Shown here piece by piece: positions 1-31,656 of a stretch of DNA of 38,861 nucleotides. The notes beneath the pieces are model-generated. The model saw only the letters and a list, made by a program, of their open reading frames with translations. It did no database searches and had not been told where the DNA came from. The position numbers and the translations under genes were made by a program. Positions within the stretch are counted from its first letter, which is position 1, and the number at the start of each line of letters is the position of its first letter. The stretch is from a virus: positions 1-38,861 of the IMG/VR virus record IMGVR_UViG_3300029813_000534. One strand, 5' to 3'.

Positions 1-347
1 ACTAATCCAGATAAATAGAAAAAATCATGGAAATTGAGATAGCCGATAAGTGTTGTTTAAGTCAAGGTAGGAAAAGCGGAAAAGTCAAGTCGTTGGAAAT
101 AACAAAGATATAGGTATAAATTGGTGGGGTCGTAGTTCAGTAAATTCTTATCTGACAATCTTATTTACCCCTATAAAGAAGCGACAGGAATGGACATAAA
201 AGGACATTTCATGTCGAGTTTGAGTCGAGATTTGATTCTTTCATTTTTCAATTTGTACAACATTTCTACAGTTGAGACGTTAGAATAGTTTAAATTTTTT
301 GGCAATTATTCCTAAAGCGTGGTAATATAATCTTGGAAGGAGGGAAA
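1..347. other. Non-coding leader upstream of the ParB operon
   Basis: No convincing gene is seen here. The stretch is AT-rich, carries phased GACATAAA-type repeats at 181-210 and an 11/12-bp tandem repeat (GTCGAGTTTGA, then GTCGAGATTTGA) at 213-235. It ends in the strong Shine-Dalgarno GGAAGGAGGG at 335-344, just before the ATG at 348. A TATAAT at 326-331 lies too close to that ribosome site to serve as its promoter in the usual way. Confidence 0.5.
181..210. repeat. 10-bp phased GACATAAA-type repeat, site A
   Basis: Three consecutive 10-bp units are seen: GCGACAGGAA, TGGACATAAA and AGGACATTTC. The last two match the units of the second array at 2381-2420, and both arrays end in GACATTTCAT. 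The period equals one helical turn, as expected for an array bound by a protein on one DNA face. It lies upstream of the ParB operon, so a partition site, replication iterons or an operator are possible; none is proven. Confidence 0.5.
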
Positions 348-578
348 ATGAAAGCTAATATCAAGGATTTAGAGCAATATGGCTTAAACCTTGATGATGT
401 TTATTTTATATTAGAGTCATTGGAGTATACAAAAAAAGCATTCCAAGAATACCCGATTGGTCCAAGTGGATATCCAAATTATGAATTTAAATTAAAAAGA
501 TTAAAAGACGTGGAAAGCAGAATAGAAAAGATGAGGAAAATAAGAGATGAATTAAAAAAAATAAAAAAGGAGAAATAA
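348..578 (+). CDS. Small charged coiled-coil protein, first gene of ParB operon
   Basis: I do not recognise a family. The product is 76 residues, with an aromatic N-terminal half followed by a Lys/Glu-rich helix (about residues 45-76) likely to form a coiled coil. The ATG at 348 is chosen over an in-frame TTG at 333 because the Shine-Dalgarno GGAAGGAGGG lies between them and would otherwise be translated. The stop abuts the parB ATG at 579, so the two genes are almost certainly co-transcribed and translationally coupled. Position and size suggest an accessory partner of the ParB-like protein, which is inference only. Confidence 0.75.
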   Translation: MKANIKDLEQYGLNLDDVYFILESLEYTKKAFQEYPIGPSGYPNYEFKLKRLKDVESRIEKMRKIRDELKKIKKEK

Positions 579-1631
579 ATGGAAATAAAAGAAATTCAAC
601 TCGACAAAATAAAACCAAATCCTTTACAGCCAAGAGAATATTTTGATAGAGAAAAAATAAAGGAACTTGCTGATTCGATTAAAGAAGTTGGTTTGGTAAA
701 TCCAATAATTGTAAGACCAAAAGATGGGAGCTATGAAATTGTTGCTGGGGAAAGAAGATGGAAAGCCTGTCAAGTGGCAGGAATAAAAATTATGCCAGCG
801 ATAGTTAAAGATGTTGATGATGGAAGGTTAATGATAGAGTCTCTTATTGAGAATGTTCATAGAGAAGATTTATCTGATGTAGAAAAAGCAAAAGCCTTGA
901 AAATTATAATGGAAAAAGAGGAAATAAAGAGCATGTTAAAATTATCGAAATTAGTAGGTTTAAGTCATACTTCAATAGCAGATATTATTGATTCTGCTGG
1001 AATGAGAGAAGAATTGAAAGGCCCCTTAAAAAAAGTTTCTCAGTTTGTTATAGCAGAGACAAGGGGCTTGCCAAAAAAAGAACGAATAAAAATTATCGAA
1101 AAAGCATCAAAAGAAGAACTTGGTGGTAGAAAAGTAAGGAAAATAGTTTCGGTAATCAAAAAAGCTCCAGAACCGATTAAAAAAGCTTTATTAGAAGAAG
1201 AAAAAATAACCCCTGATATTGCAGAAGAAATTATGGAAGCACGATTAGATGAAGAACAACAAAAAGAGATTATTGAAGATATTAAAGAAGACAAGGCTAC
1301 CCCGAAACAAGCAATTTCCAAGGCTATTGTCGAAAAAGTCCTTAAAGAAAAAGGAAAAAAAATAGAAGATTATAGAATTGATATTGAAGATGCAATAAAA
1401 GACATAGAAGAAAATTCCAGATTTTTAGCAGTTGACCTGAGAAAACCGGGATTTATTGAATCCTTAGCATCAGTAAGGATTAATGAAACTAAACAAATGT
1501 GTTTTTCTTTGGCGCTACTTCATCAATCCATTCATTGGTTCTTCAAAGAATTAAGTGATAAAGGAGAGGAATATTTGAAGATGATAAAAGGAGCACAAGA
1601 TAAAAGCGATTTAGGAGAAAAAAATAAATGA
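579..1631 (+). CDS. ParB/RepB/Spo0J-family partition-like protein
   Basis: The 350-residue protein begins with a ParB N-terminal nuclease/CTPase-like domain (about residues 4-95) with the family signatures GERRW at 57-61 and ENVHREDL at 91-98. A helix-turn-helix region follows at about 115-140 (LSKLVGLSHTSIADII), then a long helical Lys/Glu-rich C-terminal part to 350. Family members bind centromere-like parS DNA for plasmid or chromosome segregation; phage versions can also regulate transcription. No ParA ATPase is encoded nearby, so a complete par system is not shown. It sits between two arrays of phased 10-bp repeats that are candidate binding sites. The stop overlaps the next start (ATGA). 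Confidence 0.9.
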   Translation: MEIKEIQLDKIKPNPLQPREYFDREKIKELADSIKEVGLVNPIIVRPKDGSYEIVAGERRWKACQVAGIKIMPAIVKDVDDGRLMIESLIENVHREDLSDVEKAKALKIIMEKEEIKSMLKLSKLVGLSHTSIADIIDSAGMREELKGPLKKVSQFVIAETRGLPKKERIKIIEKASKEELGGRKVRKIVSVIKKAPEPIKKALLEEEKITPDIAEEIMEARLDEEQQKEIIEDIKEDKATPKQAISKAIVEKVLKEKGKKIEDYRIDIEDAIKDIEENSRFLAVDLRKPGFIESLASVRINETKQMCFSLALLHQSIHWFFKELSDKGEEYLKMIKGAQDKSDLGEKNK

Positions 1632-2179
1632 ATTATAAAGATATCGCATACAAAGCCCTAAAAAAGTATTGGATTAAAGATGTAAACGGGGGAGAAAAAT
1701 GGCTTAAAAATTTTGAAGGCCTAATTTTAACTGAGCAAATAAAAAAAGATTTCAGTTTAACAGCCATACAATGTGCTACTGTTATGCAAAAAATTAAAGC
1801 AATTACAGATCCCATAGAAAATTTAATGTTTTATGGTATAACTATTCGTATAGAAGGAAAAAAGAAAAGGGCTTATTTTTTTGCAGACTCTTTATTGACT
1901 AATGCATTAGGCATTATAGATATAACCACACGAATGAAATATCCCGCTCAAAGGGGAAAGAGAGCATATTTGCCTGAAAAAATGACCAAAGAATTAATGA
2001 AGCATCTTCCAGAGGCAAAAAAAGAGGATTATATAAAATTCCTGCCTCAAGCTATTCAGATATTAGATAATTTTTCAAAAGATTTAAAAATTGCAATTTC
2101 TCATCAATTACCAGCAGGGGTGGATTTTGATAATATAGAGTTGAGTGAAGTAAGAAAGATAGAGAAGTGTTTGAAATAA
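1628..2179 (+). CDS. Unknown protein translationally coupled to ParB
   Basis: The 183-residue product matches no family I can name. It starts with an ATG that overlaps the parB stop by 4 bases, with GGAG about 10 bases upstream, so its translation is probably coupled to ParB. It appears soluble and mixed helix/strand, with a basic patch near residues 75-110 (KKKRAYFF, then PAQRGKRAYLP) that could touch nucleic acid. Having no ParA neighbour, it might be the missing partner of ParB or a replication/regulatory protein; this is inference from position alone. Confidence 0.75.
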   Translation: MNYKDIAYKALKKYWIKDVNGGEKWLKNFEGLILTEQIKKDFSLTAIQCATVMQKIKAITDPIENLMFYGITIRIEGKKKRAYFFADSLLTNALGIIDITTRMKYPAQRGKRAYLPEKMTKELMKHLPEAKKEDYIKFLPQAIQILDNFSKDLKIAISHQLPAGVDFDNIELSEVRKIEKCLK

Positions 2180-2268
2180 AAGGACACAAAAAGGGACACA
2201 GCACGAGGGGATTTTCCTAATTTATTCTTATTTTGAGGCGAGTGGGCCAGTGTCCTTGTGTCTGGCCC
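2178..2268. repeat. Hairpin region resembling a REP/MITE remnant
   Basis: Directly after the upstream stop there is GGACACAAAAAGGGACACAG; about 50 bases later, imperfectly inverted matches (TGTCCTTGTGTCT) lie within a hairpin with a perfect 7-bp stem, GGGCCAG at 2244-2250 and CTGGCCC at 2262-2268, around an 11-base loop. No T-tract follows on either strand, so this is not a classical terminator. Similar GGACAC-type inverted repeats flank REP-associated transposase elements in many bacteria, but no transposase is present here. Confidence 0.35.
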
Positions 2269-2282
2269 CTATTATTAAAAAA

Positions 2283-2399
2283 GACGCTGAGCGGATTGTC
2301 GCCTCATTAGGAGAGACGGTTGGATTAAAGGAAGTTCTCATAAAGGGATTAATCTTTCTTAGAAATCACTCATTCATAGCACGACATAAAGCGACATAA
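2283..2399 (+). pseudogene. Possible decayed coding remnant before repeat array B
   Basis: A + frame reads open from at least 2217 to the TAA at 2397. From 2283 it gives a protein-like stretch (DAERIVASLGETVGLKEVL and onward) without a plausible start or ribosome site. It may be the 3' end of a gene lost by deletion, or chance. The frame ends inside the 10-bp repeat array, so the array may have arisen in, or been joined to, old coding DNA. Confidence 0.2.
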
Positions 2400-2420
2400 A
2401 GCGACATAAAACGACATTTC
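2381..2420. repeat. 10-bp phased GACATAAA repeat array, site B
   Basis: Four consecutive 10-bp units are seen: ACGACATAAA, GCGACATAAA twice, and ACGACATTTC. The second and third are identical. The terminal unit and the following AT match the end of site A at 181-210. A period of 10 does not fit codons, which argues for a DNA site. It lies downstream of the ParB operon, so the two arrays bracket it. Confidence 0.65.
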
Positions 2421-2483
2421 ATTAGAAAATTAGACAATCGTTGATTAATTGTTTATATCGTAATTAAAGAGGAGGTTAAAACA

Positions 2484-2522
2484 ATGAAAAAATCACTGAT
2501 TCAAATCACCATGATTAGTTAG
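2484..2522 (+). CDS. Twelve-codon leader ORF with strong ribosome site
   Basis: An ATG at 2484 follows a strong AGAGGAGG Shine-Dalgarno site (2468-2475) and encodes only MKKSLIQITMIS before TAG. It lies 48 bases upstream of the lipoprotein gene. It could be a short leader peptide controlling that gene, or the N-terminal stub of a secreted protein truncated by a nonsense change; the MKKSLI opening resembles a signal-peptide start. The strong ribosome site is seen; the role is inference. Confidence 0.35.
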   Translation: MKKSLIQITMIS

Positions 2523-2570
2523 CTTTATTGTTAAACTTTGTAATACATTAATCATATAAAGGAGAAAAAA

Positions 2571-3278
2571 ATGAGATTAAAATCGGTTATACTTGTCTTC
2601 AGTTTAATAGGTTTTATTTCATGCTGCTGTTTTCAGAATGGGCCGAATGGGCCGCCGACACCAGATCTGGTAGAGGCTGTTTTAGTCATTTCTATTGGAG
2701 GATCATCATCTACCGACATACATAATGTAGTTGATGAATGTACAGAAAATTTTGGGTACCACTTAAAATTAGATAAAAACTGGTTAAAAGACAAGGGGGA
2801 CTTACTTGCGGGTGACGGAGACGCAAAACGCATCAGGAATAAAATAAATACCCTCGTCTCAAAAAATGGCGGTGATAAATCTAAACTGTCTTTACTTGTC
2901 GTGGGAAAGAGCGCCGGTGGCGTACTGGCATGGAATACATTCAAACGGCACTATGGTGATATTGATGATTTTAATCGTGCTGCCCTGGTTATGGTTGATC
3001 CGCATGGGGCTGTTGATAACGATGGAAAAGTTGGAGCTTATCAGAACGATCAAGATTTATGGTGGCCCAGCAACTGGTCGTCTGATACAAATGTTTTAAG
3101 GGTTTATAATATCTGGCAGGAAGTAGGAATTCCAACTGGAGCAAGTTTTCCGGACAGCAGAGTATACAAAAACATCAAAATATCAGAAAGTGGCATAAGT
3201 CATGGCAATATACCTAGTCACGCAAAAACAAAAGAATTGATTACAGAGGCTATTATTTTTGCCTACACCGAGTGGTAG
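2571..3278 (+). CDS. Predicted secreted lipoprotein, alpha/beta-hydrolase-like
   Basis: The 235-residue protein starts with a hydrophobic signal sequence (about 4-17) followed by three cysteines at 18-20, consistent with lipoprotein processing, although the lipobox is not ideal. After a Pro/Gly-rich linker comes a hydrolase-like core with the nucleophile elbow GKSAG at 112-116 (Ser114), an acid candidate Asp143 in VDPHG, and a late His211 in SHGNIP. This order and spacing suit an alpha/beta-hydrolase triad. The substrate is unknown; a lipase- or esterase-like role at the cell surface is inferred. It has its own ribosome site (AAAGGAG) and stands alone, so it may be a lysogenic-conversion gene or host DNA. 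Confidence 0.6.
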   Translation: MRLKSVILVFSLIGFISCCCFQNGPNGPPTPDLVEAVLVISIGGSSSTDIHNVVDECTENFGYHLKLDKNWLKDKGDLLAGDGDAKRIRNKINTLVSKNGGDKSKLSLLVVGKSAGGVLAWNTFKRHYGDIDDFNRAALVMVDPHGAVDNDGKVGAYQNDQDLWWPSNWSSDTNVLRVYNIWQEVGIPTGASFPDSRVYKNIKISESGISHGNIPSHAKTKELITEAIIFAYTEW

Positions 3279-3550
3279 ATTGAAACATAGGAAATTTGTT
3301 TTCTCTTGCGCATAAAAACTTCACAATATTCACTACCCGATATTGCTGGAATAAGATTATCTATCAAGAATGGATACAAACCGTTGTGGAAAGATTAAAT
3401 TTAGTCTATATCTGCAACTACACTGAGGGGTGAGAAAAAATCACCCAAGGATTCACCCTGAAAGGCGATTGCGTCATGAGCCCGTCGCAACTATTTTATA
3501 GATAGCTACGTATATATTAATGCAGAAAAACATTGCACTATTTGATAACT
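3279..3550. other. Gene-free interval
   Basis: I see no supported gene. There is one perfect 6-bp hairpin, GGGTGA at 3428-3433 and TCACCC at 3441-3446 around an A-rich loop, with no T-tract. The rest is AT-rich and stop-laden on both strands. Confidence 0.4.
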
Positions 3551-3599
3551 ATGGTTTACAATTATATATAAATAGAACCGCCAGGAGGAGTAAGAGAAG

Positions 3600-3847
3600 A
3601 TGAAGCCGGATGCATATATTATTGTCACTCCTTATCTGGGATTGAATTAATTTCACTATTAAAATCAAACGGTTGGATCGAACATGGACATCGTACTCAC
3701 GGATTAGCCTTGATAAAACGGATGGGCAAAAGAACAAGAGTTGCTATTATTCCTAATACCTCAGCGTCCCTTCCCGCTAGAACTTTAATGGCGATGTTGG
3801 GTCCGAAACAAACTGGGCTTGGAAAAAAGGGATTATTAAATTTATGA
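3600..3847 (+). pseudogene. Broken HicA-family toxin gene
   Basis: A + frame ending in TGA at 3845-3847 encodes a clear HicA/YcfA-type mRNA-interferase body: SGIELISLLKSNGW, then NTSASLP, then LGPKQTGLGKKGLLNL. No usable start lies in that frame downstream of a TAA at 3569-3571. An ATG at 3600 has a good Shine-Dalgarno (AGGAGGAG) but is in a different frame and stops after 16 codons, so a 1-nt indel near 3640 would explain the break. Alternatively the frame began at ATG 3551, whose first codons resemble a HicB antitoxin N-terminus, giving a HicB-HicA deletion fusion. Either way it looks inactive, and no intact HicB antitoxin gene is present. Confidence 0.65.
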
Positions 3848-3867
3848 TGAAGGAGTATTAATCTTTT

Positions 3868-4632
3868 ATGGCAAAAAAAGTGTATAAAAAAAATTTCATT
3901 ACAACAGCGTTGCTCAGGATTGATTTTAACAATAATATAAATTTAACTTCTGATATCCTGAAAAAGTTTAAAGAAAAATTACCTTTCAAAGATTTAGAAT
4001 TTAAAGAAGGAACAGTAAAAAGGCTTGAGCTTAAAGTCGATAAAGAAGACCAGTCTTTTAGCGTTATGAATATAGGGAAATCAGGCACTTATAAATTTGA
4101 CAAAGGCTCGGCTATATTCACGTTAGACCATGAGAAATTCCTATTGTTAGTTAATAAATACGAAAGATTTTCTTCTTTTTATGAAAAGTTTAAGACCGGT
4201 TTTTCTGTAATGCAAGACCTTATTAAAGTAAATGAATTTAAACGAATTGGACTAAGATATATAAATACCATTAGTCTTGATGAGGTAAAAGAGCTTTCCG
4301 ACTGGAAAAAGTTTATAAAACCAGACATTGTACCTAATTACGCTAAAATAAAAATAGGGAATTCAAAATTTAGTCTTAGGCGGAATATGAATGAATTTGT
4401 GTTCGGAGATGGGGAATTTTTCGTGAACATTCATTCCGGTATTTGGAATAAAAATTATCCAAGTAAGCTAACTGACACAGATTGTATCTTGAGTATTGAT
4501 TGTTATATTGATAATGTTACACTTGAGAGTGAAGATATTTTAAACAAACCGAGGGAAATGGATAAAATCGTCTTTAAATATTTTGAATTTTTAATTACCT
4601 CAAAATTAAAAGTAATATTGGAGGAAAAATGA
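3868..4632 (+). CDS. TIGR04255-type uncharacterised protein
   Basis: The 254-residue soluble protein fits the sporadically distributed TIGR04255 family, whose signature I recall as a central RxGLRYIN motif; here it is KRIGLRYINTI at about residues 127-137. The N-terminal third is strand/helix-rich and the C-terminal part ends in conserved-looking acidic strands. The biochemical function is unknown. It opens a compact three-gene operon whose members overlap, and it follows a toxin relic, a setting typical of accessory or defence cargo (inference). A ribosome site GAAGGAG lies at 3848-3854. Confidence 0.65.
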   Translation: MAKKVYKKNFITTALLRIDFNNNINLTSDILKKFKEKLPFKDLEFKEGTVKRLELKVDKEDQSFSVMNIGKSGTYKFDKGSAIFTLDHEKFLLLVNKYERFSSFYEKFKTGFSVMQDLIKVNEFKRIGLRYINTISLDEVKELSDWKKFIKPDIVPNYAKIKIGNSKFSLRRNMNEFVFGDGEFFVNIHSGIWNKNYPSKLTDTDCILSIDCYIDNVTLESEDILNKPREMDKIVFKYFEFLITSKLKVILEEK

Positions 4633-4826
4633 GTAAAAAATATTCAGACCCAGAACACTCAATCGACTATACAGAAGATAATAATTTTTCAAAAGATGAG
4701 TATACACACGAAGATCAACCAATAATTGAAGATAGATACACAAAACCAAAAAAAAGAAGACACACATTTAGCGAGGTTGCTGAAAAATATAGAAAAGCAA
4801 AACATGTGGCAAAAAGCGGAAAATAA
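4629..4826 (+). CDS. Small hydrophilic middle protein of overlapping trio
   Basis: The 65-residue product is unrecognised. It begins with an acidic, probably disordered half and ends in a basic stretch (KPKKRRHTFSEVAEKYRKAK) that could bind nucleic acid or fold against a partner. The start overlaps the previous stop by 4 bases (ATGA), and the 3' end overlaps the next gene by 23 bases. Such an acidic/basic small protein between two larger ones could be an adaptor or antitoxin-like element, which is inference from layout only. Confidence 0.6.
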   Translation: MSKKYSDPEHSIDYTEDNNFSKDEYTHEDQPIIEDRYTKPKKRRHTFSEVAEKYRKAKHVAKSGK

Positions 4827-5343
4827 AAAACCCGCCTCAGGATTATTAATTAAGGACCTCGAGGTCTTAATCTCTCCCACTGAAAAAAAACCATATGGTT
4901 CATACGCTTATAGCATTATTATTTCTCAAGCCTGTGATATAGATAGCTATTGTAAAGGCATGGAAAAGTGGGAAAATGAAAAGGAAGCCCCAAGTAGACA
5001 ACTGATTACACAAATAATGTTTTGTCCTGCTTTTGACGAGGAAAAGTTTACAAAAGGGATTCATCTCGAACCTCAATATCAATATGTAATGCCATTTTTA
5101 AAAGCAAACGAGAAAAAAAAATATCAAAAACTTGAACACATGAGATACCATTATATTTATAGCAATATTGATAAAATTCCTAACTTTTTTATTGATTTTA
5201 GACAGTACTTTACTCTTCCTGCTAAATTGATAATGGATGATCTAAAAAAAGATGATGGTATTTTATATAAATTAGAACATTTACATTATACAGAATTAGC
5301 TGATAGATTTGCCTTTTATCTACAGAGAGTTGCGCTACCCTAA
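4804..5343 (+). CDS. Unknown protein with I-S-Q-A-C-D-I motif
   Basis: The product is 179 residues if it starts at the ATG at 4804; a longer form from 4726 would lie almost wholly over the upstream gene and is less likely. Near residues 38-44 it carries ISQACDI, a pattern I recall in uncharacterised bacterial proteins of similar size without a named function. The remainder is rich in Tyr, Phe and Lys, with no membrane segment. The 23-base overlap with the preceding gene makes coupled expression likely. The three genes at 3868-5343 probably act together. Confidence 0.6.
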   Translation: MWQKAENKKPASGLLIKDLEVLISPTEKKPYGSYAYSIIISQACDIDSYCKGMEKWENEKEAPSRQLITQIMFCPAFDEEKFTKGIHLEPQYQYVMPFLKANEKKKYQKLEHMRYHYIYSNIDKIPNFFIDFRQYFTLPAKLIMDDLKKDDGILYKLEHLHYTELADRFAFYLQRVALP

Positions 5344-5380
5344 ACACCTCGAAGTCCTCCTGAAAGATAAAACCACTTAA

Positions 5381-5394
5381 TCCAGCTCGCTGGA
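5381..5394. promoter_or_regulatory. Short perfect palindrome upstream of JAMM-like gene
   Basis: TCCAGC at 5381-5386 and GCTGGA at 5389-5394 form an inverted repeat around TC. It lies 70 bases before the next + gene and about 37 bases after the previous stop. It could be an operator half-site pair or a small hairpin; no T-tract follows, so a terminator is unlikely. Confidence 0.3.
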
Positions 5395-5463
5395 CATTTC
5401 CGCACAAAAAGCCTATATTATCTGTCCGGGGAAAAATCATAGAAGCTAAGAGGCGAGACATGA

Positions 5464-5880
5464 TTGAGAATAAAAGTTTTGACTCTGGGGTTAATTTGCT
5501 CGTTGATGATGAGTTTTGCTCTCTCTGCGGAGAAAAAGAGACGCATCAACTCTTGGCAAGACCTTTTTAGTGAGCCAGTCGAGCGAGTCTATATGATGAT
5601 GAAAGACGGCCTAGTTCTCAACCATACCAGCCACTACGGAGATAAGATTTACATGAGCATAGAAGCCCTGGAAACCACACTAAAGAAATTTAATAAGAAC
5701 TATCGCATTAAAGATATCGCGATAATTATCCACAACCATTTCAAGGATTTCAGATTTTCTCCTGAAGATCATAAGCAATATAGGAGGCTTAAGAAACATG
5801 GATTTAATGGCTCCTTCCTGCTTTATTCCCACCTGACAAAAAAAGTTTATGATATAGAAGAAAAGGAAAAATCAGAATAA
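5464..5880 (+). CDS. Predicted secreted JAMM/MPN-like protein
   Basis: The 138-residue protein has an N-terminal signal sequence (about 4-21, likely cleaved after ALSA) and then an MPN/JAB-like pattern: an early strand with Glu40, a strand AIIIHNH (86-92), and SPED (99-102) before a helix and final strands. JAMM metalloproteases use HxH-x7-S-x2-D; here the spacing from the second His to Ser is 6, so activity is uncertain. The start is a TTG immediately after an in-frame TGA, with GAGG about 10 bases upstream. It converges on the late operon with only 4 bases between stops. A periplasmic peptidase or lysis accessory role is possible. Confidence 0.5.
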   Translation: MRIKVLTLGLICSLMMSFALSAEKKRRINSWQDLFSEPVERVYMMMKDGLVLNHTSHYGDKIYMSIEALETTLKKFNKNYRIKDIAIIIHNHFKDFRFSPEDHKQYRRLKKHGFNGSFLLYSHLTKKVYDIEEKEKSE

Positions 5881-16037: not shown

Positions 16038-16439
16038 TTAGCTTTCAGGTGTGGGCGCAAGTACGCCGGTTCCCTTGAGCGAGAATGTTATCGTTGCTGC
16101 ATCCTCAGACGGTGCCGGGAAAGTCAAGCTTGTAAGACGAGCACTGCCCGTCACCTCAAATGTGCCATCTGCGAGAACAAGCGTAACTGTTATTGCGGAA
16201 CGGGTGAAATAATGAGTTGTTAAAAGTTTTTTTGCTGCATCTGCATAAATGTAGAGCCCGTCGCCGTCGATTGCCCAATCTCTGCGTCCGGCGATATTCT
16301 CGTCCCACCAATCTGAATCCCTGTTTGTAAGGTCAATTATCGCCTGATTTAATGTGAGTGTGAAAGTGCGGCTTTCTGCAAGCGCAGAACTATTGATTTT
16401 TAGAACGCATAGCTTTCCAGCTACTCCTAATGTTGGCAT
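16038..16439 (-). CDS. Major tail tube protein (TP901-1-like)
   Basis: The 133-residue protein opens with MPTLGVAGKLCVLKINSSAL and is rich in strands with a conserved-looking central DLTNRDSDWWDENIAGRRDW (residues 36-55) and a final beta sandwich, the pattern of TP901-1-type major tail proteins. It sits between the terminator and the chaperone, the expected position. No sheath gene is present, so a flexible non-contractile tail is expected. Confidence 0.85.
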   Translation of the reverse strand: MPTLGVAGKLCVLKINSSALAESRTFTLTLNQAIIDLTNRDSDWWDENIAGRRDWAIDGDGLYIYADAAKKLLTTHYFTRSAITVTLVLADGTFEVTGSARLTSLTFPAPSEDAATITFSLKGTGVLAPTPES

Positions 16440-16470: not shown

Positions 16471-16905
16471 TTACGAACTCGGAGCCATTTGAAACCTGAA
16501 TCTTGCAACTCCGTGTTTCACGGGTCCTCCAGACTCCGCCGAATCGTCTATAATATCGCTATAGTCCAGAATTGCTATATACGGGTCGTCATAGTCAGTT
16601 ATGGATAAAGCCGAGGAAGTTATGGCCTGGACTACATTGTTCATCATCTCAGAGATTTCCTTATCTCCTGGATACTTACTCCAAGCATCCACAATAACCA
16701 CATTGTCCTCCGCCTCCGTGTCTCTTGTGGTAAACGATGCGGAGGGTCCTCCGATGGGAGTTCCGAAAGCTATATAAGGCCATACGACATCGTTCTCCAC
16801 ATTCCCTTTGTTATAGACCCTGTAATCTTTCGTCAGGTCGTGTTCATCAAGCCTTTTATAGAAAGCATCCAGCAGTTGTTTGAATCCGAGCTTTCGTGTC
16901 GTCAT
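16471..16905 (-). CDS. Tail terminator / DUF3168-like tail completion protein
   Basis: The 144-residue protein has the start KLGFKQLLDAFYKRLDEH, then WPYIAFGTPI, DAWSKYPGDKEISEMMNNVV and a C-terminal strand VARFRFQMAPSS, which is the pattern of DUF3168/tail-terminator proteins that cap the tail tube at the head end. Its place just before the tube gene supports this. It follows the glycosyltransferase cassette, which separates it from the other head-tail joining genes. Confidence 0.75.
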   Translation of the reverse strand: MTTRKLGFKQLLDAFYKRLDEHDLTKDYRVYNKGNVENDVVWPYIAFGTPIGGPSASFTTRDTEAEDNVVIVDAWSKYPGDKEISEMMNNVVQAITSSALSITDYDDPYIAILDYSDIIDDSAESGGPVKHGVARFRFQMAPSS

Positions 16906-16914
16906 CTCATATCC

Positions 16915-19512
16915 TCATTGATACCTGTTTATCACGTTGTGTATTCCATGCTTTTGCAGAAAATAATGGGATGAGAAAGAACGTCTGTGAAAGTTATAAT
17001 CCGGCTCATCTATAGTTTTCATATGGATAGCCTTTGCATCCAGGCATACCGCAGCCTTCCATTTTGTCTTCACCAACCCCAGAAAAAAGTCTATATGCTC
17101 CCACCCAACCTTTATCTTATCGTCCCAGAGGACATCGTAGAAAAGCTCGCTCCTAGCGAGGAAGAAGTTCACGACCTGGTCGGCTGTCCTGTAGGAGCTT
17201 CCGTTCACGCTGTGGATGACACTGTTCGCCGGCCAGCGTAGGAGGAATCCGTCCCTAAACTCGAATCTCAGGCCCCGGCAGTATTCCTCTCCCCCATATG
17301 GGTCACCGTTTTCATATTCAAGGACTCCGGAGACGAGACCCAGGCTTTCATCATCCTCGAGAACCGAAAGCATCCTCTTCACGGACTCCGAGTCAGTCAG
17401 CTTTATATCATCGTCCATAATCAAGATGTATTTTTCCCCCATTTTTTTGGTTATTGCGTTTCTCCCTGCCGAGATGCCACTGTCGAATGGCAGGCGGATT
17501 ATCTGATGCCCGTCCTTCTCCAGCTCCTGGTACCTGCGTGCCTTCTCGTCCGTGACCGTGCCGTCGTCCGCTATATGAAGTTTGTAGCGGTAGGGGAAAT
17601 GCTCCTCTATGGCATCGAGCGTCTTGAAAAATGTCCTTTCCCTGAGGAATGTCTTGATGCCGATGGCGAAGACATCGCCTCGCAGTCTGCGTCTTGGCCT
17701 CGCAGTCTTCACTCCGAGCTCCTTCTTTATAATCGTCGAACTGATTCCCTTCGTATAAGGGAGGATCACCAGCTTGCCACCACACTCTCTCACGTATTCC
17801 TTCCCAGGACAGGAATCCCAGTCGTCGCCGTGGACGAGATAGTCGGGGCTTATGCCGAGCTTTTTGAGGTCGTCGGTCGGGTCCGTGTCGTTCTGCCTTA
17901 TTATCCTGTCGACTATCTTCAGGGATTCTATGACTCTCAGCCTCTGTTCGAAAGGAACAAAGGGTCTGGCTTTGTATCCTTCGGCGGCCTCGTCGGTGAG
18001 AACCCCCACTATGAGTTTATGCCCCAGGGTTTTGGACTTTTCCAGAATATTGAGATGGCCATAATGGAAAAAATCCCAGATTCCACCTATGAATACCGTC
18101 CTGTTCTTTTTGAAGAAATTGCGGTCTATCGCCCTGCAGTCTCTCCAGTATTTGTAGTCCCGGTCGGGAATTGTCCATTTCGGGCCGTACCTTTCGGCCA
18201 GATATCTCTCCGGGGGGTTCGGGACAAAACAGTGCTTGCCCATGAAAACCATCTCCCGCAGGTTCTCAAACAGTTCCACCGAGAAGACATGCGGCAGGAA
18301 GACCATATTTTTACCCCATCTTTCATTCTCGTCCGGACCGAAGGCACCGTGCCAGCACCATACACCCTTCCTGAAGAAGAAAAACAGATCGAGCTTTATC
18401 CCGTTCCTCTTGAAACTGAGCTCCATCCTTTTCCCTTCGTGTTCCCATTCCTTATAGAGTTCGAACCCGGCGGATTTGAATTCCTTTATGAAAACATCCC
18501 AGAACTTCAAATGCTCCTCGGGGAGTCCGATATCTATGTCAGGGTCGTAGGCTATAAAGGCTCTCTGCCTCACCGCACCCAGGCATGTCCCGGCCTCGAG
18601 CCACCATTTGCAGCCATGCCCCTCCAGGATGCGGATGGCCAAGGCTAAGTTTTCATCTTTTACATCAATGGATGCTCCCCTCCACACATGTCTTATAGGA
18701 TTCACCTTATTGAATGAGGAGTTGGAGAATTCTATCCCCCATTTTTTTCCGAACTGCTGATAGCCCACAGATCTCGCTCGGTATTTCCGATATTCCGCGT
18801 TGTGCATATCTTTCTTGTGGAACATCCAAGTATCCGGCGTATAGGCAACCCTGAACGGGTCTTTTTTCAATACCGGTTTCTCATCCTTGAATACAGGATT
18901 GCCGTCTTCGTCTGTCTCGTATTTAAGTCGCAGAAAGAAATCCGAGTGCTCAAATGCTGTCTTGAACTGTTCGTCCCATTTAACCTCATCCCATACTTCT
19001 TTTCGCATCATGAAGACATTAAGGATGAGATCACAGAGGAAATATTTAATGTCTCCGACGGCTTTCCACTCCGGGCTTGTTACTTCCTCTATATAATGCG
19101 TATTGCCATCTATCCATGTATTCGCCTCGTAGTGCTGATCTCTTATGAGGGTGAGCTTCAGGAGTCCCCCGACAATATCGATCTCCTTTTCAGCCTCCAA
19201 TATCTTCCGCCACATGTGGAGGTTCGTATGCTCCGTAAAGACAATATCGTCTTCCACAATGACTATGTATTTGTATTCCTGGGGGATAAGCTCCAGGGCC
19301 TCGTTTCTGGTGCCAGCCACTCCCAAGTCAAAAGGCAACTCCAGAATTTCGCATTTATGTTCGGAGCAGAATTTCGTTTTCTCTGAATTCGGATATCCAT
19401 TGTCCCCAATGAAGATGGCAATGTCGGGATAATACCGTCTTATGGATTCTATGCAACGGAAGAGGAGTTCGTCCCGCAGAAAAGTTGTGATCAGAACTGC
19501 CGTGTCCCTCAT
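16915..19512 (-). CDS. Four-domain GT2-LicD-cytidylyltransferase-GT2 glycan-modifying enzyme
   Basis: The 865-residue chain starts at the ATG whose TGA overlap (ATGA) with the preceding glycosyltransferase stop implies coupling; a longer upstream frame is ignored. Domains: GT-A/GT2 fold at about 5-265 with an acidic IVEDDIVF motif (EDD 87-89); a LicD/fukutin-like phosphotransferase at about 285-450 with WLEAGTCLGAVR and catalytic-type Asp323, Asp325 and Asp327; a cytidylyltransferase at about 470-598 with HYGH (483-486) and GISST (589-593); and a second GT2 domain at about 613-865 with MDDDI (Asp 700-702). Known relatives make CDP-activated choline, ethanolamine, glycerol or ribitol and transfer the phospho-group to sugars. 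I infer a self-contained enzyme that builds and phosphodiester-decorates a glycan. It is intact in all four active-site motifs. Confidence 0.85.
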   Translation of the reverse strand: MRDTAVLITTFLRDELLFRCIESIRRYYPDIAIFIGDNGYPNSEKTKFCSEHKCEILELPFDLGVAGTRNEALELIPQEYKYIVIVEDDIVFTEHTNLHMWRKILEAEKEIDIVGGLLKLTLIRDQHYEANTWIDGNTHYIEEVTSPEWKAVGDIKYFLCDLILNVFMMRKEVWDEVKWDEQFKTAFEHSDFFLRLKYETDEDGNPVFKDEKPVLKKDPFRVAYTPDTWMFHKKDMHNAEYRKYRARSVGYQQFGKKWGIEFSNSSFNKVNPIRHVWRGASIDVKDENLALAIRILEGHGCKWWLEAGTCLGAVRQRAFIAYDPDIDIGLPEEHLKFWDVFIKEFKSAGFELYKEWEHEGKRMELSFKRNGIKLDLFFFFRKGVWCWHGAFGPDENERWGKNMVFLPHVFSVELFENLREMVFMGKHCFVPNPPERYLAERYGPKWTIPDRDYKYWRDCRAIDRNFFKKNRTVFIGGIWDFFHYGHLNILEKSKTLGHKLIVGVLTDEAAEGYKARPFVPFEQRLRVIESLKIVDRIIRQNDTDPTDDLKKLGISPDYLVHGDDWDSCPGKEYVRECGGKLVILPYTKGISSTIIKKELGVKTARPRRRLRGDVFAIGIKTFLRERTFFKTLDAIEEHFPYRYKLHIADDGTVTDEKARRYQELEKDGHQIIRLPFDSGISAGRNAITKKMGEKYILIMDDDIKLTDSESVKRMLSVLEDDESLGLVSGVLEYENGDPYGGEEYCRGLRFEFRDGFLLRWPANSVIHSVNGSSYRTADQVVNFFLARSELFYDVLWDDKIKVGWEHIDFFLGLVKTKWKAAVCLDAKAIHMKTIDEPDYNFHRRSFSSHYFLQKHGIHNVINRYQ

Positions 19513-20216
19513 CCCAGTATCTCCTTCACCAGAGGCTGATCGAACAGCGTTTTTGAATCCTTTTCGAAATCCTTCTTTTTGTATTTGTCGACTTCGTCCT
19601 TCTTCCACATCCTGGCCGCGTACCAGTTGTGATAAACGGTGGGTTTGCCATCCAGGTAATAATTGTCCCCGAAAGCCCCGGAGTAGAATTTCTCTCCCTT
19701 TGGCTCGTAACCAGAGAAGATTCTCAATATTTCATATCCCAGCTCAGTTATGTCATAGTAGATTTTCCTTCCCACATCATGGAAGTCCCTTGCTATGAAA
19801 CTCAATTTATTTTCAAGGAAAAACTTCCGCTCGAAGAACATGAAGCAGGGATGGATCGGCTTGAGTTCGCCACCGCCCGCGGCGATCAGCCTTCTTTCGG
19901 GAACCGATTTGTAAAGTGCGATGAGTTCGGAGTCCCAGCCCTCCCTCTGCAGGTGGGCATCAATATCCAAAACCAGACAGAAACGGCGACCGGCGTTCTT
20001 CAGCGCCAGGTCAAGACCCATGCCATGTCCAATGTTCCTGTTCAGCATAATCGCCTTGATCTCTTCCTGCTCCTTCAGCCATTTAACGGAGCCGTCCTCT
20101 GAATTGTTGTCTACGATCACAATCTCATAATCTAAATGCGTGAATTTTTTGATGGAGTTGACCAATAGTTTCATCCAATCCAGACAGTTCCAGGTTACCG
20201 AGAGTATCGATATCAT
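19509..20216 (-). CDS. Family 2 glycosyltransferase
   Basis: The 235-residue protein is a compact GT2 enzyme: the start ISILSVTWNCLDWMKLLVNS, a nucleotide-binding strand IVIVDNNSEDGS (32-43), NIGHGMGLDLAL, and the DxD metal motif LVLDIDA (Asp84, Asp86). It would transfer a sugar from a nucleotide donor; donor and acceptor are unknown. It is followed at an ATGA overlap by the four-domain enzyme and preceded by a methyltransferase-like gene, so the three form one cassette. Confidence 0.85.
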   Translation of the reverse strand: MISILSVTWNCLDWMKLLVNSIKKFTHLDYEIVIVDNNSEDGSVKWLKEQEEIKAIMLNRNIGHGMGLDLALKNAGRRFCLVLDIDAHLQREGWDSELIALYKSVPERRLIAAGGGELKPIHPCFMFFERKFFLENKLSFIARDFHDVGRKIYYDITELGYEILRIFSGYEPKGEKFYSGAFGDNYYLDGKPTVYHNWYAARMWKKDEVDKYKKKDFEKDSKTLFDQPLVKEILG

Positions 20217-20220
20217 TTTC

Positions 20221-20760
20221 TCACTCTTTTATCAGAAGCCCGATTCCGTACTGGTATTTCCTAAATGACCACTTGTAGAAAAACATTTTTGTATATTCCT
20301 TATTATTCTTCACGAGCTCATCCCAGAATTTTCTAACCCAGACTTGCTCGGTCATAATGTCATGGAAGGCGATAATGTTTTCGGTCAGGGGACCGTACAT
20401 CTCATAGTCCATCTTCACATCTTTATAATCGTGGGCCGCATCAATGAAAAGGAGGTTAATGGAGTTTCCGTTGAGTGCGGTTTTCAGCTTTTCAAGAGTA
20501 GTTTGATCATGCGTATTGCCGATGATTTCCGGGGTACTGAACTCGGTCGAGATATCTATTCCGATATGGCGAGCTCCAAGAAATCTCTCATAGTATGGTT
20601 CCTGATTATTCGTGCACACACCGAGTTCCACGACGATCGGATTCTCGATGCCCCTATTCCTGAAATAAGTCTCGCAGAATTCAAGGAAAAGCTGCCACTC
20701 TTTCGGCCATTGGCCAGGATGGTGGCTTTTCATCAGAGCGTCGAAATCCTTGATATTCAT
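20221..20760 (-). CDS. Class I SAM methyltransferase, CmcI/Methyltransf_24-like
   Basis: The 179-residue protein has a Rossmann-type motif I VVELGVCTNNQ (43-53), an acidic ribose-binding-type Asp69 in IGIDIS, and LLFIDAAHDYKDVKMDYEMY (103-122) followed by IIAFHDI (129-135), typical of cephalosporin-hydroxylase/sugar O-methyltransferase-like enzymes in polysaccharide clusters. It probably methylates a sugar in the product of the neighbouring glycosyltransferases. It has a good ribosome site (ACGAGGGATTA), and its gene opens the cassette. Confidence 0.75.
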   Translation of the reverse strand: MNIKDFDALMKSHHPGQWPKEWQLFLEFCETYFRNRGIENPIVVELGVCTNNQEPYYERFLGARHIGIDISTEFSTPEIIGNTHDQTTLEKLKTALNGNSINLLFIDAAHDYKDVKMDYEMYGPLTENIIAFHDIMTEQVWVRKFWDELVKNNKEYTKMFFYKWSFRKYQYGIGLLIKE

Positions 20761-20821: not shown

Positions 20822-21277
20822 TCATATCTTCTTAAACTCCTTTTTCAGTCCTTTCTCTATGTCGCCTTCGTGCATGAAGAAAGCCGGATAGAGATAAGGT
20901 TTGCCCGACTGGTTATACTGCCTACCGAGCTTGTCCTTGCCTACAAAGCCGTGTTCTATGCGCCTTGCGTATTTGACATTCGAGCCGACCGCAACAGCTA
21001 AACCACTTGGACCTGGGGGCTGTCCCACTCCATCGCCCCTCTTTGCACCGCTACCGACTCGCCCTTCACTCATCCCGCTTCCCGCCCAGTTCGTGGAGAC
21101 AGAGCCTCTAAGTCGCCCAGTTTTAACAGGGCAACCTTCCTTAGCCGATGTCTCGACCTTGAACCCTGTTTTCAAGAGGATTTTCTTCACCGCCTGTCGC
21201 TGTTTTTCAGTCCACTTCTTGACATCTATCACCGCCTTTTCCGTCCCTACCATCCTCACGCTAATCTGATCAGCCAT
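20822..21277 (-). CDS. HK97 gp10-like head-tail joining protein
   Basis: The start is placed at the ATG that overlaps the preceding stop by one base (TAATG), giving 151 residues; a longer frame from 21337 lies over the upstream gene. The protein has the gp10-type sequence CPVKTGRLRGSVSTNW (about 48-63), a Gly-rich loop, then VKYARRIEHGFVGKDKLG and YLYPAFFMHEGDI near the C-terminus. Such proteins act at the head-tail junction. The next gene downstream is the methyltransferase of the glycan cassette. Confidence 0.85.
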   Translation of the reverse strand: MADQISVRMVGTEKAVIDVKKWTEKQRQAVKKILLKTGFKVETSAKEGCPVKTGRLRGSVSTNWAGSGMSEGRVGSGAKRGDGVGQPPGPSGLAVAVGSNVKYARRIEHGFVGKDKLGRQYNQSGKPYLYPAFFMHEGDIEKGLKKEFKKI

Positions 21278-21627
21278 TATACATCCCTCGTTATCTCCGT
21301 AAGGGAGAGCTTCAGGTATTTTCCTTGCTCGCTCCAATCCTGGACAAGCTTTATCTCGAACATCCGGCTGTTATGGACTATAACCTGTCCTCCCTTTATC
21401 CCATTTAGGTATTCGCAGTAGCCGTAGTAGTCGGGGTTTGTCGTCTTCTTGTCATAGGCAATCATTTGCTCGTCCGTTTTCCTGTCCAGTGTCTCGAATC
21501 GGAACGGCACATTGGTATAAACAGTAGTGTATGTGATCGTGCCTCCGCCGCCCATAGAATCCGGACTACCTGCCTTAGTCCTTTCTTTTATATCGACTTT
21601 GGTATCGAGAAGCGTTGCAAAGCTCAT
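21277..21627 (-). CDS. Head-tail adaptor (stopper-type) protein
   Basis: The 116-residue protein has the size, strand-rich pattern and position of phage head-closure (stopper) proteins: a start SFATLLDTKVDIKERT, a Gly-rich loop, VPFRFETLDRK, and the end MFEIKLVQDWSEQGKYLKLSL. It lies between a 160-residue protein and the gp10-like gene. Assignment combines the family-like end motif with order. Confidence 0.75.
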   Translation of the reverse strand: MSFATLLDTKVDIKERTKAGSPDSMGGGGTITYTTVYTNVPFRFETLDRKTDEQMIAYDKKTTNPDYYGYCEYLNGIKGGQVIVHNSRMFEIKLVQDWSEQGKYLKLSLTEITRDV

Positions 21628-28438: not shown

Positions 28439-28606
28439 TTAATTATTTATTTTCCACTTCAATGCCAGAATTTTGTTTCTCGCCTTCCTGAATTCTCTTT
28501 TATCATGGGCATATTCCTCTCCGCCCTTGGCATTTCTCATCGAGTTCCTGTAAAGCTCCATGTGCTTTTCGGCTATTGCGAGCGCTCCGATTATATGGAC
28601 AGTCAC
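28439..28606 (-). CDS. 55-residue basic protein coupled to the protease gene
   Basis: A GTG at 28606 overlaps the protease stop (GTGA) and opens a 55-codon frame ending in TAA at 28439: MTVHIIGALAIAEKHMELYR, then a helical, Lys/Arg-rich end (RKARNKILALKWKINN). An ATG at 28561 is a shorter alternative. The 4-base overlap and clean frame support it. It may be a small head-assembly factor; the family is unknown. Confidence 0.55.
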   Translation of the reverse strand: MTVHIIGALAIAEKHMELYRNSMRNAKGGEEYAHDKREFRKARNKILALKWKINN

Positions 28607-29148
28607 TTGACCTTTCCTCTCTTCTTGTCCAAGTCCTCCTCTACAGCCTTTTTGATGACCTCTTTCAGATCCACCTTTGAGAGTGCCTCCTTCACTGCGG
28701 CTTCTATGTCGGGTTGCTCCGCGGATTTGCTCTCGGCTTCCACCACCTCTATCTCGCCTATCTCCTTCTCGGTCTCCTCCTCTTCTTCGGTTGTCCCGGC
28801 AGCATCGGCCTTCAAAAGCGCCTGAAGCGCTGTTATCGCATCCTTGACTATCTGCCTGTTCTTGCGACTAAGGACTCGGCCTTCCTTGAGCTCTTTGATT
28901 TCTTCCAAAATTTGGTCGAATTTATAAACTGCCGATAAATAGGTTTTCATATCTATTGGAAGCTCTTCCTTTCCTGGCCCCGGCCTCTCCGCTCTTCTCA
29001 TCTCACCTCCGCATTCTGGGCATTTGATCTCATTGCAGTGCTTATCGGATGTCAGCTTGTGTCCGCATTCAATACATTCGCAGTTGTATTTCTGCTTTTC
29101 TTCCTCTGCTTTTCTTTCAGTCTCAATCTCTATCTCCTTGTCTTCCAT
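28603..29148 (-). other. Probable internal start for a separate scaffold-like product
   Basis: An in-frame ATG (codon 837 of the protease gene) is preceded by GGGAGAGGTGAAGATT, a Shine-Dalgarno as strong as those of real genes here. It would yield a 181-residue product with the zinc ribbon and coiled coil but no protease or ATPase. Phages such as lambda make their scaffold from inside the protease gene in the same way. The start is seen; its use is inference. Confidence 0.55.
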
Positions 29149-31656
29149 AATCTTCACCTCTCCCTTTTCGTATTTGACTCTATCCCAAACGGCCTTTGCA
29201 TCCGTCTTATTGCCTCTTATCTCCTCTATCAGCTCCCTCTGTTCCGTGAGTTTGTCGAGGCTCATTATTAAAGCCTTCCCTATCTCAAGCCCGTCTTCCT
29301 CCGCTATCATCTTGGCGAATTCCACAAGCTCCTTAATATGGGCGCCAGAGAAGCCGTCGGTCTTTTCCGTTATCTCTTTCAGGAGGTCCTCCCCAATATC
29401 TCCTGCCCACAGCTTCAACATCTCCTCTCTTTGCTTTTCTGCGGGAAGCTCGAAATTCACTATGTGGTGGAACCTGCCCGGACGGTCCAGCAACGCATCG
29501 GGAAGCTTTTCGGGATAGTTGGATGTCAGGATGGTGATAATGCCCCTGTTCTGCTTTATGCCATCCATCTCGGTCTTGATCAGATCAGTCACGAATTCCA
29601 TCTCGCCTCTCAGCCAAGTATCTATATCCTCGAGGAAAAGAACTGACGGGGCCAAATCCCGACTCAAAGCGAAACCCAGTGCCAAAGCCCTGAGCGGTCC
29701 TATGTGCCTGAAATCCTTGCTGGACACCCAGATGAAAGTTGCATCCAGTTCGTTCATCAGCACCCGACCTGTTTTCGTCTTTCCCGTTCCCGGAGGGCCG
29801 ATGAACAATAATCCCCTTCCTGTGAAGGCTTTGCCCTTCTTTTCCAAGAAAGTGGCTGACTTGCGGATCGAGTCTTTGTATTTTTCATCCAAAATCAGGT
29901 TCTTCCAATCATCGTCCGGCTCGTGCAGGAACTCCCCGCTCAGAGAGAACTTCTCACCCCTGAGGAAATTGTTCTCGTAAACCCAACTATGGATCTTATC
30001 AAGAAGCTCTTTATTCCATTCCTTATTCTCATTCGATGTGGTAAGCGTTACGGTCAGTCCGTACCAATTTGGGCTGAAGCTCACTATGAGAGGCTTCTTT
30101 TCTGCCTCATAGAAGCACATGCCGTCGATAAGGAAATCATCGCTTTTCTCCGAATTGAGCTGGATAACCTCATAATCGGGTGGAACTTCAGAGCCATCCC
30201 AGATAAATTTCCTTGTGTCCTTCAGGTCGAATTCGCCCAGGATCTCCTTGAAGCCTGCAAGATACGTCCCCAACAGCGGCCCGGGAATGGAATAGCCGTT
30301 CTGGAAGATCTCTTTTACCTTGCATTCCAGGAACTTCTCATACAGCTCATAATGGAATCTCAGGGGTTTGGGGCTTTGTGTACTTGCCACATCGAACAGT
30401 TTGGAGAAGGATTTATTCCAACGCTCTTTATGCTGGGGCTCGCTTTCCATAATCTTCTGCACCCATGCCTCAAGCTCCTTCTTATGCTCACTCACCCATG
30501 TCTGTGCTTCCGACATGCTCCATTTATTCACATCAAACAGGTAGGTAATGACTACTTTACATTGCCCACAGTAAAGGGCCTTTATCCCCTTGGCTACGGA
30601 TATGACGATGGTGCGGATCCTGTGGCCTTTATGTTTGTCTGGCGATTCCACGGGGATGCGGTGGTAGTCCGCAGGCGTCTCGGGCTTGGTTATTATTTCT
30701 GTTATTTTTCCTTCTTTTCTCAATTGGGCGAAAGCTTCTTTTGCCTTCTCAGTTCGATAGTTAATTTCTGTTTTTTCTTCTTCTGTAAAATCATCCGACT
30801 CCACCTCAATCTCTTGTTCACCGCTTATAGTTTTGCCAACCTGTGGGTCTTTCGCTACAGGATGAGTAATAGTTTCTATAGGCTCAAGCTCCACCTCAAT
30901 CTCCTTGTCCTCGACTTCCTTCACAATCTCAATCTCCAAGTCCTTCTTCAGCCTCTCCGACTGCAGGTTGAGGATGCCCTTGGACACGGCCACATTGAGA
31001 CTCTGCGCGTTCGAGGCGACCGGCACATCGGAGTGTTCGAGCAGTATCCATTTCGAATAAATCGTCTTCGCCTTGCCACTCACATCCTTCGGGATGCCGT
31101 ATTCTTTCTCCAACACATCCTGGCATTGCCTGAAGCCCTCCTTGTCGGTGTCCATGGTGTGAAAATCCACGGGAATGAAGCCTACGGAGTTCGACCTCAG
31201 ATGGTCGTCCTTCACGCACTGGTAGACGTCCTCCGCGAATTGGTGCTTGGCGTAGACCGTCTTCGCCAGAATGCCCTGAAGAACAATCTTTATCCATTGG
31301 TCCGAGCCTACGGGAAGACCCTTGTAGTCGTGAGCGTAAAGCACGCTAGGAGATTGGCGGAAGTCATCCAGCATCGCCCCTTTGGGGATAAGGATCTCGC
31401 CGTCCCTGTCAAGGTTCGGAGTGGTTATAAGCCTGATGGCCGCCCTTTCACCCTCCTTTATTGAGATGTCCTTCGGATCTATGGGGATGCCCTTCCTCAC
31501 GAAGACGATGTCACCCAGCTTCCTGTGGAGCTTCTGGGCGTATTTGCCGAGTTCCTGAGCCTTCGTCGGGTTTGTCTCTTTTATCGGCTCTAAACCCTTC
31601 TCCTTGTTTCCGTAGATAAGATCCTTCAGAGTGTATCTATCGGTTCTGAGTTCCAT
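28603..31656 (-). CDS. Prohead protease with inserted AAA+ ATPase and zinc-ribbon scaffold tail
   Basis: The 1017-residue chain starts after AAGGAGG. Residues about 70-225 are an HK97-type (S78) prohead protease with candidate catalytic His109 (YAHDYKG), Ser157 (SNSVGF) and Glu207 (LLEHSDVPV). Residues 330-400 hold the phage segment with ALYCGQCK and WSMSEAQTWV. Residues about 430-830 are inserted: a pre-domain, then a classic AAA+ module with Walker A GPPGTGKT (620-627), Walker B VLFLEDID (672-679, Glu-Asp order as in BCS1-like AAA), sensor SN713 and RPGRF (725-729). Then come a zinc ribbon (CIEC...CPEC, 861-882) and a helical scaffold-like end. Proteolysis of delta domains is expected; the ATPase role is unknown. 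Confidence 0.88.
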   Translation of the reverse strand: MELRTDRYTLKDLIYGNKEKGLEPIKETNPTKAQELGKYAQKLHRKLGDIVFVRKGIPIDPKDISIKEGERAAIRLITTPNLDRDGEILIPKGAMLDDFRQSPSVLYAHDYKGLPVGSDQWIKIVLQGILAKTVYAKHQFAEDVYQCVKDDHLRSNSVGFIPVDFHTMDTDKEGFRQCQDVLEKEYGIPKDVSGKAKTIYSKWILLEHSDVPVASNAQSLNVAVSKGILNLQSERLKKDLEIEIVKEVEDKEIEVELEPIETITHPVAKDPQVGKTISGEQEIEVESDDFTEEEKTEINYRTEKAKEAFAQLRKEGKITEIITKPETPADYHRIPVESPDKHKGHRIRTIVISVAKGIKALYCGQCKVVITYLFDVNKWSMSEAQTWVSEHKKELEAWVQKIMESEPQHKERWNKSFSKLFDVASTQSPKPLRFHYELYEKFLECKVKEIFQNGYSIPGPLLGTYLAGFKEILGEFDLKDTRKFIWDGSEVPPDYEVIQLNSEKSDDFLIDGMCFYEAEKKPLIVSFSPNWYGLTVTLTTSNENKEWNKELLDKIHSWVYENNFLRGEKFSLSGEFLHEPDDDWKNLILDEKYKDSIRKSATFLEKKGKAFTGRGLLFIGPPGTGKTKTGRVLMNELDATFIWVSSKDFRHIGPLRALALGFALSRDLAPSVLFLEDIDTWLRGEMEFVTDLIKTEMDGIKQNRGIITILTSNYPEKLPDALLDRPGRFHHIVNFELPAEKQREEMLKLWAGDIGEDLLKEITEKTDGFSGAHIKELVEFAKMIAEEDGLEIGKALIMSLDKLTEQRELIEEIRGNKTDAKAVWDRVKYEKGEVKIMEDKEIEIETERKAEEEKQKYNCECIECGHKLTSDKHCNEIKCPECGGEMRRAERPGPGKEELPIDMKTYLSAVYKFDQILEEIKELKEGRVLSRKNRQIVKDAITALQALLKADAAGTTEEEEETEKEIGEIEVVEAESKSAEQPDIEAAVKEALSKVDLKEVIKKAVEEDLDKKRGKVK

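Follow-up and report, generated by a model that had tools for sequence, protein, structure and literature searches.

Results

A virus record of 38,861 nucleotides (IMG/VR IMGVR_UViG_3300029813_000534, positions 1 to 38,861; hereafter the window) encodes an 865-residue protein in which two GT-A glycosyltransferase domains surround a LicD-type phosphotransferase domain and a cytidylyltransferase-like (CT) domain. The four-domain gene is genuine, and the active-site motifs of all its domains are intact. Each of these domains is familiar, and both phages and bacteria are known to carry LicD and CT as a pair of separate genes. What is new, as read from the sequence, is that the predicted activities of donor synthesis, phospho-transfer and two glycosyltransferases are united in one viral chain that is conserved at one locus. 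Because the domains are familiar, the separate pairs are known, and a description of the fused form was not found in the literature, we regard the protein as a new variant and not as wholly new.

Domains and active-site motifs

The gene and its domains are placed as follows.

16915..19512, minus strand: GT-A/LicD/cytidylyltransferase/GT-A protein, 865 aa (stop codon counted in); an intact homologue, L001, is 84% identical
18715..19512, minus strand: GTn, N-terminal GT-A glycosyltransferase domain, aa 1-266; EDD at 19246-19254; Pfam PF00535/PF13641
18151..18666, minus strand: LicD/FKRP-type phosphotransferase domain, aa 283-454; DPDIDIG at 18526-18546; PF04991
17701..18111, minus strand: CT, cytidylyltransferase-like domain, aa 468-604; HYGH at 18055-18066, HGDDW at 17818-17832; PF01467
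16918..17679, minus strand: GTc, C-terminal GT-A glycosyltransferase domain, aa 612-865; DDD at 17407-17415; PF00535, best stretch 618-738

The reading frame is unbroken from the ATG at 19512 to the stop at 16915. The ATG (19512-19510) overlaps the TGA of an upstream GT2 gene in an ATGA sequence, an overlap of start and stop that resembles the arrangement of a tightly packed operon. Every Pfam match (GT2 twice, LicD at 6e-14, CTP_transf_like at 2.5e-18) lies above its curated cut-off: the LicD domain scores 53 bits against PF04991 (cut-off 22.6), the CT domain 67 bits against PF01467 (cut-off 21), and the GT2 domains 73.9 bits against PF00535 in two stretches. Both glycosyltransferase domains combine the GT2/GT-A profile with a DxD-type metal motif (EDD at residues 87-89, DDD at 700-702), and GTc is a paralogue of GTn, which as a query matches it at about 4e-20. 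The LicD domain contains the DxDxD motif of its family (DPDIDIG, 323-329), with IKLDLFF downstream, and matches FKRP by sequence (4e-5). The CT domain carries HYGH (483-486), HGDDW (561-565) and GISST (589-593). The predicted folds described below, FKRP-like and Fom1-like, agree with these two assignments.

Across an alignment of 11 relatives that are 45-84% identical to the four-domain protein, the motif columns show little or no variation. Further, dN/dS is about 0.05-0.17 (0.065-0.133 per domain against the nearest copy), and all four domains are under purifying selection. The unbroken frame, the conserved motifs and the low dN/dS rule out a chance open reading frame, a frameshift artefact, an assembly join or a decaying fusion.

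A sequence-only reading had placed an 865-residue protein at 16915-19512, correctly, and had given no strand. It had also proposed two GT2 domains around a LicD domain and a cytidylyltransferase, with EDD, DPDID, HYGH and DDD intact. Sequence, profiles and predicted structure bear out this layout, and all of those motifs are present and conserved. The Pfam search and structure prediction that it had suggested as checks confirmed all four parts, including the LicD and CT domains as named.

Predicted structure

For the whole chain (alignment of 11 viral sequences), AlphaFold returned a mean pLDDT of 81, with low values only in the linkers and a few short loops; the pTM was 0.44, and the relative placement of the four domains is not fixed by the model. 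The LicD-CT part modeled alone (26 sequences) reached a pLDDT of 92 and a pTM of 0.85, and this unit is thus well predicted. The GTn model matches B4GALNT1 (9h6k; Z 25.7, rmsd 2.4 over 235 residues). The highest-ranking structures for GTc, at Z about 20, are for the most part GalNAc-transferases. The LicD model superposes on the catalytic domain of FKRP with Z 18.1 and an rmsd of 2.7 across 163 residues. The top match of the CT model is the product-bound Fom1 cytidylyltransferase (5x3d; Z 19.6, rmsd 1.5 over 119 residues, 42% identity), which ranks ahead of the glycerol-3-phosphate, heptose and phosphocholine enzymes.

Larger parts of the chain also find counterparts. GTn-LicD aligns end to end with FKRP, from the GT-like stem of that protein through its catalytic domain (model residues 1-454 on 47-485), and GTn and GTc together align with K4CP, a chondroitin polymerase with two glycosyltransferase domains, albeit with a different inter-domain geometry. 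With an rmsd of 15-23, these joint alignments support the order of the domains but not their geometry.

A fixed place among tail genes

The genes that surround the four-domain gene are these.

16038..16439, minus strand: major tail protein gene (phrog_1407, 4e-24)
16471..16905, minus strand: tail terminator gene, the fixed downstream neighbor (phrog_176, 5e-16)
19509..20216, minus strand: upstream GT2 glycosyltransferase gene (PF00535, 7.8e-14), whose stop overlaps the start of the four-domain gene
20221..20760, minus strand: Methyltransf_24-type methyltransferase gene of the cassette (PF13578, 1.3e-5, barely above the cut-off)
20822..21337, minus strand: tail completion/neck gene, the other edge of the glycan cassette (phrog_5, 1e-13)

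In all 53 fused-family loci that extend far enough downstream, the next gene is the tail terminator, and the major tail protein follows wherever the contig reaches it; three further loci that were checked, two split forms and one distant relative, stand outside this count. The tail completion/neck gene is equally placed in L014, L021, L022, L072, L085, L090, L099, L104 and L109. Between the neck gene and the family gene lies a cassette that holds a methyltransferase gene together with one or more GT2 genes. Homologues of the upstream GT2 gene precede many family members, and methyltransferase homologues are found in the cassettes of L008, L011-L014, L021-L023, L090 and L099; the L022 cassette additionally holds a DegT aminotransferase and a GNAT acetyltransferase. 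Predicted membrane segments are absent from the three cassette proteins of the window and from 53 of the 56 cassette proteins of its relatives. The cassettes examined showed no gene for a flippase, a GtrA/GtrB-like membrane protein or a polyprenyl-phosphate enzyme.

The record also encodes terminase, portal, major head protein, head-tail adaptor, neck and tape measure genes. Its terminase is only about 32% identical to those of the nearest cultured phages and is therefore uninformative on the host. A scan for promoters and terminators yielded no more matches than shuffled sequences, and a search for tRNA and RNA families found none.

Elsewhere in the window, a 1017-aa protein (28603-31656, minus strand), whose gene lies immediately upstream of that for the major head protein, apparently joins an N-terminus that resembles, by eye, an HK97-type prohead protease to an AAA+ ATPase (PF00004, aa 616-736). 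Another gene (37138-38349, minus strand) encodes an N6/N4 DNA methylase with a ParB_N domain fused to it. Positions 1-5880, which are plus-strand and ParB-encoding, have 31-37% G+C, against 40-57% in the remaining record; it may be an early region or a plasmid-like segment, or it may reflect a chimeric join.

Relatives and reduced forms

Relatives were collected by IMG/VR scans using CT and whole-protein alignments. All four domains occur in 34 more contigs, several of them cut by contig ends, and the four-domain forms make up 13 clusters at less than 70% identity, with the present gene counted. The sequence-only reading knew of no such architecture in a phage. This holds for the 50,697 deposited phage records, none of which matches 80% of the protein, but not for uncultured viruses, dozens of whose contigs conserve it. 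The search for the domain order elsewhere, which the same reading had called for, thus succeeded among viral contigs; no bacterial homologue of the whole protein was found in two contig scans with a few peptide patterns each, so that absence from bacteria is weakly tested. Plasmid records yielded no match to 80% of the protein; the best covers 34% of it, in two genes. The best LicD match in deposited phages comes from phage DP SC_6_H4_2017 (L006), whose licD gene has an IspD-like gene just upstream. An apparent CT-GT fusion in a deposited "Listeria phage" record was rejected, as the match covers two separate genes.

Several relatives at the same locus carry less than the full set. The CT domain is decayed, without HxGH and HGDDW, in five (L079, L085, L086, L097 and L101); these retain the CT fold signal and intact LicD motifs. 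It is absent from three others with LicD intact (L096, L099 and L100), and both LicD and CT are absent from eight (L103-L110). All lineages outside the decayed-CT clade retain HxGH, and HGDDW as well, with a few variants (HGTDW, HGNDW, HATDW and HGNNR). The GT domains yield a tree in which every reduced form makes up a single clade amid the four-domain forms, and losses are the simplest reading of this pattern, although the root is uncertain. There are also larger forms: L022 has the upstream GT2 joined in frame to the four-domain protein, and an extra N-terminal GT2 domain is present in L090, L103, L104 and L110.

An intact CT is always accompanied by LicD; LicD without CT occurs among family members, and CT without LicD never does. 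The two are also found as adjoining separate genes, in the split viral forms L113 (CT/LicD/GT-GT) and L115 (LicD/CT/GT) and in polysaccharide loci of Gemmobacter and Parabacteroides (L121 and L122). The coupling of CT to LicD that the sequence-only reading had assumed is supported by both observations.

The four-domain proteins of the window and L001 are far more alike (84%) than the neighboring tail proteins of the two (31-53% identical), and the gene may therefore move between phages. L008 and L013 differ in another way: their GTn domains are 97% identical and their GTc domains 78%, which suggests recombination between modules of the gene.

Discussion

Proposed activity and acceptor

We consider it marginally probable that the protein is a late-expressed, cytosolic, soluble single-chain glycan synthase in which CT makes a donor, LicD transfers from it and the glycosyltransferases build a glycan, with a virion protein as the probable acceptor. 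By the chemistry of its family, CT would join CTP and a small phospho-alcohol (or a phosphonate) to yield a CMP-activated donor and pyrophosphate, and the adjoining LicD domain would transfer the phospho-group to a sugar hydroxyl. The sugar chain would be assembled from nucleotide sugars by GTn and GTc, to which the separate upstream GT2 may contribute. The product could be a short or repeating glycan bearing phosphodiester substituents or links. The pairing of a CT that makes the donor with a LicD that uses it is suggested by the family chemistry of LicD/CpsC and FKRP, by the constant company of CT with LicD, and by the adjacency of their genes in bacteria and in the split viral forms.

Modification of the acceptor, most simply a neck or tail protein, would precede or accompany assembly. 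A virion protein seems more probable in this role, given the locus fixed inside the tail operon, the soluble-looking enzymes and the lack of any lipid-carrier or flippase gene in the cassettes examined. The place beside the tail genes suggests co-expression, however, and not the target itself, and soluble glycosyltransferases act on cytosolic lipid-linked precursors too. The same chemistry might thus be directed late in infection at a host surface glycan (an O-antigen, capsule or teichoic-type polymer), remodeling it so as to block adsorption to debris or superinfection. Bacterial LicD and CT pairs act on surface polymers (PMC11666461, PMC3647402), the nearest of them to the present protein sit in surface polysaccharide loci, and superinfection exclusion was proposed for the licD and ispD pair of Flandersviridae by the authors who described it (PMC8008677). 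Against this, the membrane-associated machinery noted above was not seen in the cassettes, and the locus lies inside the tail operon and not among morons. We judge a host acceptor to be somewhat unlikely.

The nature of the donor

Glycerol-, ribitol-, ethanolamine- or choline-phosphate, or phosphonates, are possible substrates of CT. NCBIfam places the domain among adenylyl/cytidylyltransferases, with no equivalog cut-off reached; against the glycerol-3-phosphate cytidylyltransferase model (TagD, TIGR01518) it scores 73.6 bits, below the cut-off of 165.4. The fused CTs fall outside the TagD group in a CT tree that is built on few columns and does not resolve substrate. A gene that would make the phospho-substrate was not seen in the present record and some relatives have kept LicD and lost CT; the description of the protein as "self-contained" was therefore too strong.

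Both sequence and fold point to the hydroxyethylphosphonate cytidylyltransferase domain of Fom1 as the closest solved structure, which raises the possibility that the glycan bears a C-P group, such as host-supplied aminoethyl- or hydroxyethylphosphonate. CTs of the Fom1 type are indeed fused to PEP mutase (PF13714) in other viral contigs (L032-L042, L044, L051, L065 and similar), and in L037 a LicD gene adjoins the fusion. However, the CTs of PEP mutase proteins and Fom1 form one clade (100/100 support) that leaves out all 22 fused CTs in the tree, the CTs of the split relatives L113 and L115 group with glycerol-3-phosphate enzymes, and PEP mutase was not found in the present record or in 23 other four-domain records searched, which may be fragments. 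A phosphonate donor is thus quite unlikely. The contigs with CT-PEP mutase fusions are of interest in their own right, as they apparently represent virus-borne phosphonate biosynthesis, which has been little described. Two-domain LicD-CT fusions without glycosyltransferases also exist (L068:7437-8408 and L070:7395-8447), and their CTs lie on the PEP mutase side of the tree.

The decay of CT in one clade and its loss in another imply that donor synthesis is not needed in every virus, and suggest that where CT is dead or absent the donor can come from the host. The retained fold of the decayed CTs, together with the three contigs that lost CT while LicD stayed intact, would also suit a mainly structural CT that positions LicD and the glycosyltransferases while the host supplies the CDP-donor. 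We find this improbable: the HxGH motif persists in every other lineage, HGDDW in all but a few variants, and when the window is compared with L001, CT shows the tightest constraint of the four domains (dN/dS 0.065).

It is very improbable indeed that the glycosyltransferases act on phage DNA, with phospho-decoration of DNA sugars: a weak Pfam match to a TET-associated glycosyltransferase (E 0.01) falls under the cut-off, the gene lies in the late tail module, GTn and GTc find their best fold matches in B4GALNT1 and mostly GalNAc-transferases, and 12 records gave no TET/JBP match in a search whose silent control makes that result a weak one.

Implications

If the single-chain synthase reading is true, many uncultured phages carry, at one fixed place by their tail genes, a ready-made donor-plus-transfer enzyme for phospho-glycans, and the virus particle (or the infected cell) may gain an unusual sugar coat. 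In its strongest form, which we consider unlikely, a virus-borne chain would make its own CMP-activated donor and assemble, directly on tail proteins, a polymer that is teichoic-like or bears phosphonates, giving a phosphodiester-linked virion glycan coat. To our knowledge, such chemistry is not known for any virus particle. A testable question is thus opened: which chemical groups do phages place on their particles, and how do these affect adsorption or stability? The natural series of forms with CT, with a dead CT, without CT and without LicD separates donor synthesis from transfer.

Comparison with known systems

Adjacent licD and ispD genes have been described in the Flandersviridae gut phages (PMC8008677). 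Like the four-domain protein, this pair brings a LicD enzyme and a cytidylyltransferase together in a tailed phage; it differs in comprising two separate genes in the replication module, with an IspD-type CT and no glycosyltransferase fusion, whereas the CT described here belongs to PF01467 and is fused. In phage DP SC_6_H4_2017 (L006:5184-6807), the neighbor of licD is described as an isoprenoid IspD; it may more simply be a CDP-alditol-type cytidylyltransferase that serves LicD.

In Actinobacillus pleuropneumoniae, Cps7B and Cps7C (a LicD-type CpsC) were demonstrated in vitro to be a glycerol-3-phosphate cytidylyltransferase and a CDP-glycerol-using transferase/polymerase (PMC11666461), and cshA/cshB of Neisseria meningitidis H form a comparable CT and LicD system (PMC3647402). 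In both, as proposed here, the CT provides the CDP-donor used by the LicD protein. Unlike the viral chain, these are separate capsule-operon proteins with a CT of the glycerol-3-phosphate type and a LicD protein that has a predicted TPR domain and is not fused to a glycosyltransferase. Fom1 of Streptomyces wedmorensis and other PEP mutase-CT fusions belong to phosphonate pathways (PMC6697681). The CT domain of Fom1, the closest solved relative of the present CT, is fused to PEP mutase and lies with those of such fusions in a separate, well-supported clade.

Single-chain synthases are known from bacterial capsules. K4CP (2z86/2z87) has two GT-A domains like the GTn-GTc core, with low overall identity and a different domain geometry, and Bcs3-type capsule polymerases join a glycosyltransferase to a polyol-phosphate transferase in one chain (PMC10299916). 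As far as described, neither includes LicD or a donor-making CT. The N-terminal half of the four-domain protein has its counterpart in human FKRP (6kaj-6kan), where a GT-A-like domain is likewise followed by a LicD-type catalytic domain. FKRP uses CDP-ribitol on a glycan and has neither a CT nor a second glycosyltransferase. Its donor is made by ISPD, a separate enzyme of another fold.
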